Below, in pieces: positions 22,599 to 26,616 of a DNA stretch of 64,000 nt. This stretch comes from Natronorubrum sulfidifaciens JCM 14089. GTDB taxonomy: Archaea > Halobacteriota > Halobacteria > Halobacteriales > Natrialbaceae. The position numbers and the translations under genes were made by a program. Position 1 is the first letter of the stretch, and each line of letters opens with the position of its first letter. The notes below the pieces were generated by a model. It was not told where the DNA came from. It did not search any database and saw only the letters and a list, made by a program, of their open reading frames with translations. The stretch spans positions 249,163-313,162 of the forward strand of contig NZ_AOHX01000025.1 in NCBI RefSeq assembly GCF_000337735.1. The letters run 5' to 3'.

Positions 22599-23546
22599 TC
22601 AGTCTTCGAACGACGTCACAGCCGCTCGAGTCGGGAGTGCCGCCATCGCCCCGGCAGCCGTCGTCGCGGCGGCACCGACGGCGTTGGCGAAGGCGAGCGT
22701 CTCAGCCAGATCACGATCCTCTCGTAACCCTGCAATCGCGCCGGCGACGAAAGCGTCCCCCGCACCAGTCGTATCGACGACGTCGGGTTCGTAGCCGGGA
22801 TGGGAAGCTGTGCCCGCCCACGGCGTCCCGTCGTCGGCGACGGCGATCGCCCCTTCACTGCCGCGCGTGACGAAGACGACCGACGGACCGGCCGTCATCG
22901 CGTCTCGAGCGATCGCCTCGGTGCTGTCGCCCTCGAAACCGAGGCGCTCGAGTTCGCCCGCGGTGGCTTTCAGCACGTCGACGCTCGCGAGTGCGTCGCG
23001 GACGACGCGCCGGTAGGTGTCGTCATCTGGCCACAGCTCCGGGCGCTCGTTGGGGTCGAACGAGACCGTACAGTCCCGTTCGGTGGCTCGCTCGAGCAAC
23101 TCGAGGGTCGCCTCCCGGGAACGCCCGCTCGAGAGCGCCACGCCGCCGGCGTGGACCCACTCGTGGTCGGCGAGAACGTCGTCGTCGATTCGTCCCGGCT
23201 CGAGGCGCGTGTCGGCGGTGTCGTCGCGATAAAACGAGAACTCACGGTCCCCGGTTTCGTCGTGGGTCACGAAGGCGAGTGAGGTCTTCGCGTCGGGGTC
23301 CAGTTCGACGTACCGGTCGGCGATGCCGTACTCGCGGAGGGTTTCACGGAGGTACCGACCGAAGGGATCGTCGCCGACGCGGGTCCAGAACGCCGGCGTG
23401 TGCTCGAGTCGAGCGAGGGCGACGGCGACGTTCGCGGGCGCGCCGCCGGGTCGTCGTTCGAACCCCTCGACCGCCTCGATCGGGCCTGAAGCAGTCGGGA
23501 GAAAGTCGATCAGCGTTTCGCCGGCGATCAGTACGTCGTGGGACAC
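22599..23546 (-). CDS. PfkB-family carbohydrate kinase (fructokinase-like)
   Basis: 315 residues from a GTG at 23544-23546 (VSHDVLIAGETLIDFLP). A long upstream frame extension is basic and Ser/Arg-rich, unlike real proteins here, and was discarded. Both PfkB signatures are visible: GGAPANVAVALARLEH near residue 40, and DTTGAGDAFVAGAIAGL near 260 with the catalytic Asp. The substrate is probably fructose or 2-keto-3-deoxygluconate. Proximity to the sugar importer suggests it phosphorylates a product of that pathway, though it lies beyond trmB on the same strand. Confidence 0.88.
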   Translation of the reverse strand: MSHDVLIAGETLIDFLPTASGPIEAVEGFERRPGGAPANVAVALARLEHTPAFWTRVGDDPFGRYLRETLREYGIADRYVELDPDAKTSLAFVTHDETGDREFSFYRDDTADTRLEPGRIDDDVLADHEWVHAGGVALSSGRSREATLELLERATERDCTVSFDPNERPELWPDDDTYRRVVRDALASVDVLKATAGELERLGFEGDSTEAIARDAMTAGPSVVFVTRGSEGAIAVADDGTPWAGTASHPGYEPDVVDTTGAGDAFVAGAIAGLREDRDLAETLAFANAVGAAATTAAGAMAALPTRAAVTSFED

Positions 23547-23616
23547 GCCGCTTCGTTCGCCGTCCCTCGGATAATGTGTTCCGAATACATACGAGCGACG
23601 AACGGACGCGAGCGCG

Positions 23617-24231
23617 TTACTCGAAACGGCCCTGGAAGACGATCTCCGACAGGGGCTTGCGGTCGCTTGGCTGTTCGCGCTCTTGTAGCTCCTCGGGCAG
23701 CGTTTCTGGCGGCGCGCGCTCGCCGACGGCGAACATCGCTTCGACCGCGAACTCCTCGGGGACGTCGAGTTCCTCGGCAGCGCGCTCGTAGTCGAAGCCA
23801 GCCATCCCGTGGACGGCGAGGCCGCGACGGGCACCCTCGAGCGCAAGGTTCTCCCACGCCGCACCGGTGTCGAAGGAGTGGACCGGGGCTGGCTCGCCGT
23901 TGTGGTCGAAGGTCGTCTTCGAGAGAATTACGGCGAGGACGCCGGCATCGGCTGCCCACGCGTTCCCCTCGCTCAGGAGGTCGACGAACGTCTCCCACTC
24001 GTCGTCCTCGCGTGTCGCATAGACGAACCGCCAGTGCTGGTTGTTAAATGCCGATGGAGCCCAGCGTGCGGCTTCGAACAGCGGGAGAAATTCGGCTTCC
24101 TCGAGCGGTTCGCCGGTCATCGCGCGCGGCGACCAGCGGTTGACGAACAGCGGGTCGATGTCGTGGTCGGGGCTGCGGTGGTCGGCGACGTCCTCGTCGA
24201 GTTCACGCTGCTGTGGTGGGACTTGCGTCAT
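23617..24231 (-). CDS. nitroreductase family protein
   Basis: 204 residues. FMN-binding signatures: FVNRWSPRAMTGEPL (the RxSxR-like entry), FEAARWAPSAFNNQHWRFVY near residue 55, and SFDTGAAWENLALEGARRGL near 115. The C-terminus LPEELQEREQPSDRKPLSEI is typical of the HBN-type nitroreductases. It would reduce quinones or nitro compounds with NAD(P)H and FMN. A striking 9-bp inverted repeat lies 22-49 bases upstream of its start, overlapping the expected promoter, so a dedicated regulator is likely. Confidence 0.88.
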   Translation of the reverse strand: MTQVPPQQRELDEDVADHRSPDHDIDPLFVNRWSPRAMTGEPLEEAEFLPLFEAARWAPSAFNNQHWRFVYATREDDEWETFVDLLSEGNAWAADAGVLAVILSKTTFDHNGEPAPVHSFDTGAAWENLALEGARRGLAVHGMAGFDYERAAEELDVPEEFAVEAMFAVGERAPPETLPEELQEREQPSDRKPLSEIVFQGRFE

Positions 24232-24485: not shown

Positions 24486-25562
24486 TTAGTCGTCTGCGGG
24501 TGCAGCCGTGTCGCGTTCGATGTCGATGGTGCCCTCGTCGAGGTCGGCCTCGACGTTACGGGCCGCTTCGACCATGTTCGCCATCTTGCCGTAGGCGACT
24601 TCGCGTGGCAACAGCTTCACGCCACAGTCCGGCGAGACGACGAGCTGTTCCGGGGGAACGACCTCGAGGCCTTTCTTGATGTTCTCCTCGATCTGCTCGA
24701 CGGACTCGACCTCAGCGACGTGGACGTCGGTGACGCCGAGTGCGAGATCCGCGGTGAACTCGGGGTCTTTGAAGACGTCGAGCTGGTCGTAGTCGCCGTT
24801 GGCGAGTTCGAGGTCGAACTCGTCGACGGGGAACTCCAGAATTTCGGGGTAGATCCGGGAGTAGTCACCGTAACAGACGTGGAGGCCGATGCGGACCTCG
24901 TCGGGAATGTCGGCGACGATCTGCTCGAGCGCTTCGCCGACGATGGCGTGGTCGTCCGGGGTCGTCGCGAGGGCGGGCTCGTCGATCTGGATGTAGCGTG
25001 CGCCGGCGTCGACGAGCTTTTCGATCTCCTCGTTGACGAGGTCGGCCAGTGCGAGCGTGAGTTCGTCGTCGTCCTCGTAGGCCTCGTTGAACGACCAGTT
25101 GGCGAGCGTGTAGGGGCCCGTGATCGGGACCTTCACCGGACGGTCGGTCGCCTCAGCGGTGAACTCGTACTCGTCGACGAGCCACGAGTCGGTGTACTCG
25201 ACCTCGCTCACGACGCTTGGCTTGTCGAAGTAGTTGTGTCCCCACACCTTGACGGGGCCGTTGAACTCGTATCCCTCGATACGGTGGGCGAAGAACTCGA
25301 CCATCTCGTTGCGGCGCATCTCGCCGTCGACGACGACGTCGAGCCCTGCGCGTTCGTGTTCGTTCGTGATAAGGCGGGCGGCGTCGTCTTTCGCTTCCTG
25401 ATAGTCGTCCTCGTCGAAGCCGTGGTCCGGGTCCTGATACAGCTCTTTGGCGCGGTTGAGCCATTTGGGCTTCGGGTAGGAGCCGACGACGGTCGTCAGC
25501 AGGAAGTGGTCGTTTTCGTGGTCCTCCGGTCGGAACTGGTCTTTGTTCTCGTTTGTGCTCAT
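24486..25562 (-). CDS. metE: methionine synthase, cobalamin-independent catalytic-domain type (MetE C-terminal-like)
   Basis: 358 residues equivalent to the C-terminal catalytic TIM barrel of MetE. It begins with TTVVGSYPKPKWLNRAKEL and contains VVDGEMRRNEMVEFF. The zinc ligands are in place: GLHVCYGDY (His-x-Cys) near residue 227 and SPDCGVKLLPR (Cys) near 312. It transfers a methyl group to homocysteine; in archaeal 'core' MetE proteins the donor may be a methyl-corrinoid rather than methyl-folate (from the literature, not visible here). Its start overlaps the stop of the partner gene by four bases. Confidence 0.9.
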   Translation of the reverse strand: MSTNENKDQFRPEDHENDHFLLTTVVGSYPKPKWLNRAKELYQDPDHGFDEDDYQEAKDDAARLITNEHERAGLDVVVDGEMRRNEMVEFFAHRIEGYEFNGPVKVWGHNYFDKPSVVSEVEYTDSWLVDEYEFTAEATDRPVKVPITGPYTLANWSFNEAYEDDDELTLALADLVNEEIEKLVDAGARYIQIDEPALATTPDDHAIVGEALEQIVADIPDEVRIGLHVCYGDYSRIYPEILEFPVDEFDLELANGDYDQLDVFKDPEFTADLALGVTDVHVAEVESVEQIEENIKKGLEVVPPEQLVVSPDCGVKLLPREVAYGKMANMVEAARNVEADLDEGTIDIERDTAAPADD

Positions 25563-26557
25563 GCGACGGTCACCTCGGCGAGGTCTGCGGCCTCAGCAAG
25601 GACGGCGAGTTTCTCCTCGTACTTGGCGTATGGCAGATAGAACGTCTCCGTGTTCGTCGTCAGGTAGACGGTCTCGAACTCGGCGACTGGTAGCTGTCCT
25701 TCGACCCAGTCGACCCGGTCGCGGATCGCTTCGGGGTCTTCGACCAGCGTGTTCTGGCCGTCGGCGAGACCGAGCGAGATGTCCGCCGGCGCGCCGTACT
25801 CCTGAATGTTGTAGAGGTTGTCGTCCTGATTTGCGACGAAGTCAAAGCCGACCGCGTCGATGTCGGCATCGAGCAGGTGGGCGTAGACCTTCTCCTCGAG
25901 TGCGCCCCAGTAGGGCTGGACGACGACGTCGGCGTCCGTCGCGGAAGCGACCTGATCGATCGCCTCGCTTGCGCGTTCGTCTGTGCCGTCTTCGGGTGCG
26001 TTCTCGACGAGCGAGGGCTCGAGCAGGAACAGGGTTTCGACATCCGGGAAGGCGTCGACTTCGCCGGCGAGGAAGTCGGCAATCGCGCCGAGGAACTCGG
26101 CCTCGTCGCCGTACTGTTCGTCGGTGGCGAGGTCAGCCAGCGAGTACGGGCCGGGGAGGACCGCCTGCAGGTCGTCGGTCAGCTCCGACGCGGCTTCGAG
26201 TTCGCCTGCAACGTCGCCCGAGAACTCGAGGTCGCCGCTGACGACGGGCTCTCGATAGAAGTTGTTGTTGTCATAGTAGCGGACGATGCCGCGGGTTTCG
26301 ACGTTGTCGTGGACGGCCAGCGGGTGGGCGAGCATGTCGTCCCAGCGAAGCTGTCCTTCGACAACGCGGTCGAGGCCGGCGTCTTGCTGGCCCTCGATTA
26401 CTTCGGCGCGTGCTTGCTCGTATACCGAAGCAATCTCCTCACCTTCGTCGCCGCCGATGAGGTCGTGTTTCTGGTGGCCCTTCAGGTCCGAGAGGTCGTC
26501 TTTCGCCCAGTCCGGGAGCGGAAACAGCCCCGGCGTGGTCGAAACGTACTCAGTCAT
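25559..26557 (-). CDS. MetE-like TIM-barrel partner lacking zinc ligands
   Basis: 332 residues from the ATG at 26555-26557 (MTEYVSTTPGLFPLPDWAK). It is homologous in layout to its downstream neighbour (VVEGQLRWDDMLAHPL matches the DGEMRRNEMVEFF block; LPGPYSLADLA matches the ITGPYTLANWS block). The zinc His-x-Cys is replaced by QPYWG, the terminal Cys by TNTETFYLPY, and the protein contains no cysteine at all. In classical MetE the N-terminal barrel is likewise zinc-less and helps bind folate. It is therefore best read as the N-terminal half of a split MetE. First gene of the operon, with a palindrome upstream. Confidence 0.8.
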   Translation of the reverse strand: MTEYVSTTPGLFPLPDWAKDDLSDLKGHQKHDLIGGDEGEEIASVYEQARAEVIEGQQDAGLDRVVEGQLRWDDMLAHPLAVHDNVETRGIVRYYDNNNFYREPVVSGDLEFSGDVAGELEAASELTDDLQAVLPGPYSLADLATDEQYGDEAEFLGAIADFLAGEVDAFPDVETLFLLEPSLVENAPEDGTDERASEAIDQVASATDADVVVQPYWGALEEKVYAHLLDADIDAVGFDFVANQDDNLYNIQEYGAPADISLGLADGQNTLVEDPEAIRDRVDWVEGQLPVAEFETVYLTTNTETFYLPYAKYEEKLAVLAEAADLAEVTVA

Positions 26558-26585
26558 CGTGGGAGCGGCTAGGCTATACCGACGC

Positions 26586-26616
26586 TTAATATTTTCCATC
26601 CATAGTAATGCATTAC
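26586..26616 (-). promoter_or_regulatory. promoter and palindromic operator candidate of the metE operon
   Basis: Minus-strand TATA-like AATATTAAG at about 26586-26594, roughly 30 bases before the start codon at 26557. About 10 bases further upstream is GTAATGCATTAC (26605-26616), a perfect 12-bp palindrome. Position directly upstream of BRE suits an activator or a repressor. Confidence 0.5.

Follow-up and report, generated by a model that had tools for sequence, protein, structure and literature searches.

The window, a stretch of 64,000 nucleotides from Natronorubrum sulfidifaciens JCM 14089, carries two overlapping genes on its minus strand (24486-26557) that encode barrels of the MetE type. 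Two overlapping MetE-like genes had already been recognised in a sequence-only reading, and both the ATGA junction and the Pfam matches confirm them:

24486..25562, minus strand: C-type catalytic barrel of split MetE, with the zinc and homocysteine site (358 aa; Pfam, NCBIfam, conserved residues)
25559..26557, minus strand: N-type barrel of split MetE, the predicted methyl-pterin half, without zinc cysteines (332 aa; Pfam, profile comparison, orthologues)
25559..25562, minus strand: ATGA stop/start overlap of the N-half and C-half genes, four bases (read from the sequence)

The longest upstream frame obtained by ORF calling spans 25559-26599 (minus strand, 346 aa), but the start at 26557 (MTEYV...) appears preferable to that at 26599, because the orthologues align from the Met at 26557. 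The ATGA overlap suggests that the two genes are translationally coupled. Further downstream (22602-24231, minus strand) lie genes for a nitroreductase-family protein and a PfkB sugar kinase, which have no obvious link to methionine.

In Pfam the N-half is matched better by Meth_synt_1 (55.1 bits, gathering cut-off 27) than by Meth_synt_2 (37.8 bits), and the C-half better by Meth_synt_2 (202.4 bits, cut-off 21) than by Meth_synt_1 (51.9 bits). The NCBIfam model NF003317 ("methionine synthase") gives 548.3 bits for the C-half, above its cut-off of 406, and 98.3 bits, below it, for the N-half. Unlike one-chain MetE, the pair consists of two chains: no single chain of at least 676 aa corresponds to TIGR01371, for which the two frames score 193.0 and 47.7 bits against a cut-off of 929.95. 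The components (358 and 332 aa) are adjacent and overlapping, and each keeps within the 400 aa allowed for a component of split MetE. The pair accounts for all PF01717 matches in its own genome (G000; 3.46 Mb, 63 contigs, 97.85% complete), whose acid-rich proteins and genes agree with a haloarchaeon of the class Halobacteria. A domain search of the same genome gave no match to PF02607 (B12-binding_2), and a MetH of the usual kind is therefore absent as far as PF02607 can tell.

Split MetE has been published for Halobacteria: the sections of Price, Deutschbauer and Arkin (2021, PMC7857596) that deal with it name Haloferax and Natronomonas and count 73 Halobacteria genomes. According to the same sections, MetE in Haloquadratum is the one further kind of methionine synthase that was identified in the Halobacteria. 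The window shares with that system the two adjacent genes, each of less than 400 aa, one N-type and one C-type, the lack of other PF01717 matches in the genome and membership of a group named there. Set against those sections nothing essential differs, and what is added here is evidence from residues, synteny and co-occurrence. The pair is thus the already known split MetE, and a lone haloarchaeal lineage, described below, is an interesting by-product. The methyl donor of split MetE had previously been a prediction from domain content, the relevant part of PMC7857596 predicting methyl pterins.

Zinc, homocysteine and predicted pterin sites

The catalytic residues of the C-half were located by alignment with E. 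coli MetE, including the following two codons:

24879..24881, minus strand: codon of His228, zinc ligand, equivalent to E. coli H641, with partners Cys230, Glu252 and Cys313
24624..24626, minus strand: codon of Cys313, zinc ligand, equivalent to E. coli C726

The motifs GLHVC and SPDCG had been proposed to hold the zinc, and indeed they supply three of its ligands (H228, C230 and C313), the fourth being E252. In the alignment of all 142 haloarchaeal paired C-halves the zinc positions H641, C643, E665 and C726 read H, C, E, C, and the homocysteine residues S433, E484 and D599 are likewise conserved in 142/142. Both sets of residues are stated for MetE in the portion of PMC7857596 used here.

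Profile alignment also bears out that QPYWG and TNTETF stand at the zinc places of the N-half, where Tyr216 and Thr303 occupy the positions of the two zinc cysteines. Across 142 sequences, site 216 is Tyr in 122 (the rest F, S, H or V) and site 303 is Thr in 140 and Ala in 2. At the first ligand place 73/142 have His and 61/142 have Gln, so that the description of the N-half as zinc-free rests on the cysteines: both cysteine ligands are gone, but a His often persists at the first place. The sequence-only reading had pointed to the lack of any cysteine in the N-half. This is true of the protein in the window but does not define the family, since 118/142 N-halves have none, 19 have one and 5 have two; by crude ORF calls the window has 23 ORFs with a length of 280 aa or more, and 3 of these, the N-half included, are free of cysteine. 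The absence of cysteine was consequently rejected as a meaningful feature and is incidental.

For the pterin site, W561 of E. coli MetE is by database annotation a pterin-binding residue and H694 the proton donor; R515, E605 and the N-domain residues R17 and K20 are pterin contacts and K117 a folate contact. The letters of the E. coli sequence at these positions fit. The equivalents in the window that persist are:

25095..25097, minus strand: codon of Trp156 of the C-half, equivalent to E. coli W561 (alignment; W in 142/142 pairs, F in 5/5 lone proteins)
24720..24722, minus strand: codon of His281 of the C-half, equivalent to E. coli H694 (alignment; H in 142/142 pairs, Q in 4/4 readable lone proteins)
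26279..26281, minus strand: Arg93 codon of the N-half, aligned with K117 of E. coli MetE (R in 142/142)

Equivalents of W561 and H694 are found in E. coli MetE, in 26/26 other fused MetE proteins, in 142/142 haloarchaeal pairs, in 4/4 pairs from outside the class (L219-L222) and in 2/2 deep-branching pairs; every examined enzyme with an N-barrel keeps both. The pair thus resembles E. coli MetE (L003) in its zinc H/C/E/C, its homocysteine S/E/D, W561, H694 and a related N-barrel, and differs from one-chain MetE in R515 (Asn in 142/142 C-halves), E605 (Thr in 103/106, a figure from a smaller alignment of 106, the column being gapped in all 142 of the larger one as an alignment effect), R17 (Lys in 139/142), K20 (Leu in 141/142) and K117 (Arg). 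The only MetE pterin contacts to persist are W561, H694 and, in the form of Arg, K117. Because R515, E605, R17 and K20 are replaced, the pterin site, as judged from aligned residues, departs from that of MetE: the catalytic core is intact and the pterin site appears partly retained.

The loss of the R17/K20 signature (K in 139/142, L in 141/142) would fit an N-half that is a structural partner only, stabilising or closing a C-half that takes up the methyl donor on its own, as would the fact that the pterin contacts of MetE lie mostly in the C-domain. This reading, which we hold to be unlikely, has to contend with the conservation of the segments K26-Q29, V92-Y95 and N97-R102, at least 98% across the 142 N-halves, and with their fate in G018 as well as the distribution of the lone synthases, described below.

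The N-type identity of the upstream barrel is best seen from profiles. With hhalign its profile scores 107 (E 1.9e-14) against the MetE N-domain and 39 (E 1.7e-4) against the MetE C-domain, which supports the earlier proposal of an N-type barrel without zinc cysteines coupled to a catalytic C-type barrel; its best match overall is the haloarchaeal C-half (131). AlphaFold models, built from alignments with the MetE domains, have a mean pLDDT of 82.6 and 82.7 for the two halves. That of the N-half is poor at 28-34 and 82-104, regions that include or adjoin the conserved motifs, with a pLDDT below 50 at 82-104, where R93 lies. In comparison with the PDB the C-half model retrieves MetE C-barrels with Z values reaching 39.4 (327 residues aligned at rmsd 1.9), and the N-half model is tied between MesD, at Z 30.9 (305 residues, rmsd 2.6), and MetE N-barrels, at Z 30.4 (308 residues, rmsd 2.8). 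Structure was therefore rejected as proof of N-type identity, some MetE chains moreover being aligned on their C-barrel.

The C-half alone shares its fold and zinc site with the folate-independent core synthases MesA-MesD, a comparison for which residues were taken from 12 MesA/MesC-like proteins and MesD served as a fold match only. In contrast to these 12, which have Gln at position 484, the pair has Glu there (142/142), an N-barrel partner and W561/H694. The 12 proteins (L224-L235, same phylum) carry A, G or S at W561 and N, S or A at H694 (12/12); the label MesA/MesC-like is our own, given for the Gln at 484, and no N-type ORF was matched in L224-L235.

Conservation of the pair and co-occurrence with a Mer-type reductase

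The class sample comprised 145 genomes from 58 genera. PF01717 is present in 144, and the stretch around the best match was taken for all of these, giving 146 loci with two extra copies. The N-half adjoins the C-half on the same strand in 142/145 genomes, and the genes overlap in 131/142, by 4 bases in 99 and by 1 base in 32, as counted with script-chosen starts (the Met nearest the aligned start). The genomes without a pair are G001 and G007, with a C-type gene alone, and G018, without a PF01717 match. The extra loci are a further C copy in G057 that has no N-half next to it (L049) and, in G014 besides its split pair, a one-chain MetE-type match (L004; 508 bits, 768 aa frame).

The second copy in G057, and the lone C-type proteins of five haloarchaeal genomes, could be taken to mean that the two genes encode independent enzymes, the C-half working by itself as a core methionine synthase and the barrel encoded upstream having another role. 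Against this stand the overlap of 4 bases or 1 base in 131/142 pairs, the complex formed by the Pyrococcus homologues PF1268 and PF1269, as cited in the section of PMC7857596 on split MetE, and the lone proteins themselves, which have other residues at W561 and H694 and group in a clade of their own. Independence of the two proteins is thus very improbable.

A Mer-type reductase accompanies the pair. TIGR03555 (Mer-type, putative methylene-THF reductase), which we take to be the methanopterin enzyme family, is matched with E 2.0e-79 or better in the 142 paired genomes; in the unpaired genomes G001 and G007 it has no match, and in G018 one of 9.7e-39. The coincidence of the pair with a strong Mer match (142/145) has a Fisher p of 2e-6 with kinship ignored, the line between strong and weak matches being ours, as the curated cut-off of TIGR03555 is reached in 0/145 genomes. 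In PMC8305020 the Mer homologue of Haloferax (HVO_1937) is proposed as a methylene-THF reductase, a prediction without experiment.

The N-half profile and Mer were also searched in 69 relatives of G001, and the C-half profile in 17 of these. N-half and strong Mer are both present in 57 and both absent in 6, namely the five genomes with a lone C-type gene and G170 (71% complete, also without C). A strong Mer without N-half occurs once (G164, 59% complete, also without C), and an N-half with weak Mer five times: in G018, G156 (87% complete), G157 (92%), G160 (81%) and G174, whose Mer match is split into two pieces. Among the 17 relatives, two have an N-half but no C-half (G018 and G158, the latter incomplete), and in G175 the N-half is accompanied by a C fragment only.

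The case of G018 is instructive for the role of the N-half. This genome, perhaps a methionine auxotroph, has neither a PF01717 match nor a strong Mer match, and its remaining N-half (L172:4040-4981, minus strand) is decayed: inspection by eye did not reveal the motifs KGHQ (26-29) and VRYY.NNNFYR (92-102). That the conserved segments are lost where the C-half and strong Mer are missing argues against a partner-only role.

Taken together, the pair is very probably a two-gene cobalamin-independent methionine synthase, in which the N-half closes a methyl-THF site on the zinc-bearing C-half and a Mer-like reductase acts as supplier. The C-half would hold zinc by His228, Cys230, Glu252 and Cys313, bind homocysteine and form its thiolate. 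The N-half would pack face to face on the C-half, as does the N-domain in one-chain MetE, and the 5-methyl-tetrahydrofolate site would be closed between the two barrels. The zinc-bound thiolate would then take the methyl group straight from the pterin, the methyl-THF being supplied by the F420-type (Mer-like) reductase. In this mechanism the association of the two halves, the use of methyl-THF, the way the barrels are arranged and the role of Mer are inferred.

C-type barrels without an N-half

A C-type gene without an N-half was found in five genomes: G001, G007 and G145 of genus g17, and G163 and G169 of family f16; G145, G163 and G169 are incomplete (72-78%). A strong Mer match is absent in 5/5. 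A profile of the lone proteins, run over 40 relatives of G163 (G145 lying outside this set), gave four strong matches (673-691 bits), the others scoring at most 404, and no further member was found among the 40. NF003317 scores 300-325 bits, below its cut-off of 406, on three lone proteins.

At the zinc and homocysteine sites the lone proteins are unchanged, except that one of the five is truncated by a contig end and is without the site of the last cysteine. They carry Phe at W561 in 5/5 and Gln at H694 in 4/4 readable cases. A maximum likelihood tree was computed from 57 C-type proteins: 14 of the 27 MetE, 21 of the 142 haloarchaeal pairs, 6 other pairs, 12 MesA/MesC-like and 4 lone proteins. 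The truncated lone protein and L223, a barrel without the zinc residues, were excluded. In this tree the four lone proteins form one clade (100/100), joined with 20 haloarchaeal paired proteins (100/99). The MesA/MesC-like clade (100/98) stands apart from both. Since the tree sets the lone proteins within split MetE, beside the haloarchaeal pairs and apart from the MesA/MesC-like proteins, a split MetE is their most likely ancestor.

Corrinoid carriers and putative methyl-folate genes of the lone-C genomes

PF02607 is matched in 5/5 lone-C genomes and in 0/10 others; in the class sample it occurs in 2/145 genomes, both of them lone-C. In family f16 the carriers lie close to the synthase. G163 (L191:4239-10325) has an MttB-family gene (484 bits), the lone C gene, RACo, DUF1638 and a corrinoid protein, and G169 (L192:2485-10039) has the lone C gene, RACo, DUF1638, FolD and a corrinoid protein, and its contig carries an MttB gene as well, away from the cluster (L278). 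The lone synthase gene of genus g17, as seen in G001 (L193:3921-7111), directly follows an atpB-like gene in what was named by eye as an ATP synthase operon. Two corrinoid proteins of g17 lie in the L205 stretch with URO-D-family proteins, RACo and DUF1638, and one (L204) lies beside an aldehyde:ferredoxin oxidoreductase-like gene; in L193, L204 and L205 no gene neighbourhood links the g17 synthase to a corrinoid protein.

This distribution bears on the methyl donor of the pair as well. That the N-half docks a methyl-corrinoid protein, the pair using methyl-cobalamin, might be entertained, as haloarchaea make cobalamin (PMC8305020) and related core enzymes use methylcobalamin in vitro (PMC7857596). 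We attach hardly any probability to it: PF02607 is missing from the window's own genome and from 143/145 genomes of the class, and the C-half keeps W561 and H694, which are absent from the core enzymes examined. A partner-only N-half is also at odds with the finding that the lone C lineage was met only in genomes with corrinoid carriers (5/5). Because the N-half occurs together with the Mer-type reductase and is not found in genomes where corrinoid carriers appear, the evidence leans to its being the methyl-folate half rather than a corrinoid-docking or partner-only protein, as far as gene content can indicate; the loss events are few (g17, f16 and G018) and related, so that no more than two or three count as independent.

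Putative methyl-folate genes are not entirely missing from the lone-C genomes. The proposition that these have no methylene-THF reductase at all was rejected, as PF02219 (MetF-like) gives weak matches (45-59 bits, cut-off 24) in 5/5. Within the 17 genomes searched it is also matched in G157 and G014 but in none of the other 10, and it has no match in G000, the window's own genome. The protein in G014 (L281) is MetF-like and of the same kind as in the lone-C genomes. In f16 the matches lie near thymidylate synthase and DHFR-like genes (named by eye), and in g17 near FolD, MtrH and RACo genes; in G001 (L276:1003-5852) FolD, the weak MetF-like protein, an MtrH-like methyltransferase and RACo stand side by side. 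A methyl-THF pool may exist in the lone-C genomes, because of the weak MetF-like proteins (5/5) and the MtrH-like protein (g17); the g17 set possibly serves the oxidation of corrinoid-bound methyl groups through folate.

It is rather likely, though less so than the reading of the pair as a methyl-THF-dependent synthase, that in the g17/f16 lineage (5 genomes) a split MetE has become a further folate-independent synthase family, in which the N-barrel is absent, a methyl-corrinoid protein is the donor, and W561 and H694 are replaced by Phe and Gln. The N-half would then be the part that is lost when the donor becomes a corrinoid protein. A literature search by title found no published lone haloarchaeal methionine synthase. 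The lineage is a specific candidate for a central enzyme that has changed its donor, and the haloarchaea offer a natural comparison, with the same catalytic barrel accompanied either by an N-barrel and a Mer-type reductase or by a corrinoid carrier. W561 and H694 make a simple two-residue signature for testing the donor use of MetE-like proteins.

Two further loci were met in the searches. L223 (G216), near a contig end, encodes a MetE-like barrel without zinc residues; its seven sites for homocysteine and zinc read N, Q, N, Y, Y, D and A. On a contig labelled "uncultured bacterium" (L146:2064-4054), N-type and C-type MetE-like ORFs are adjacent, the C-type one reaching the contig end.
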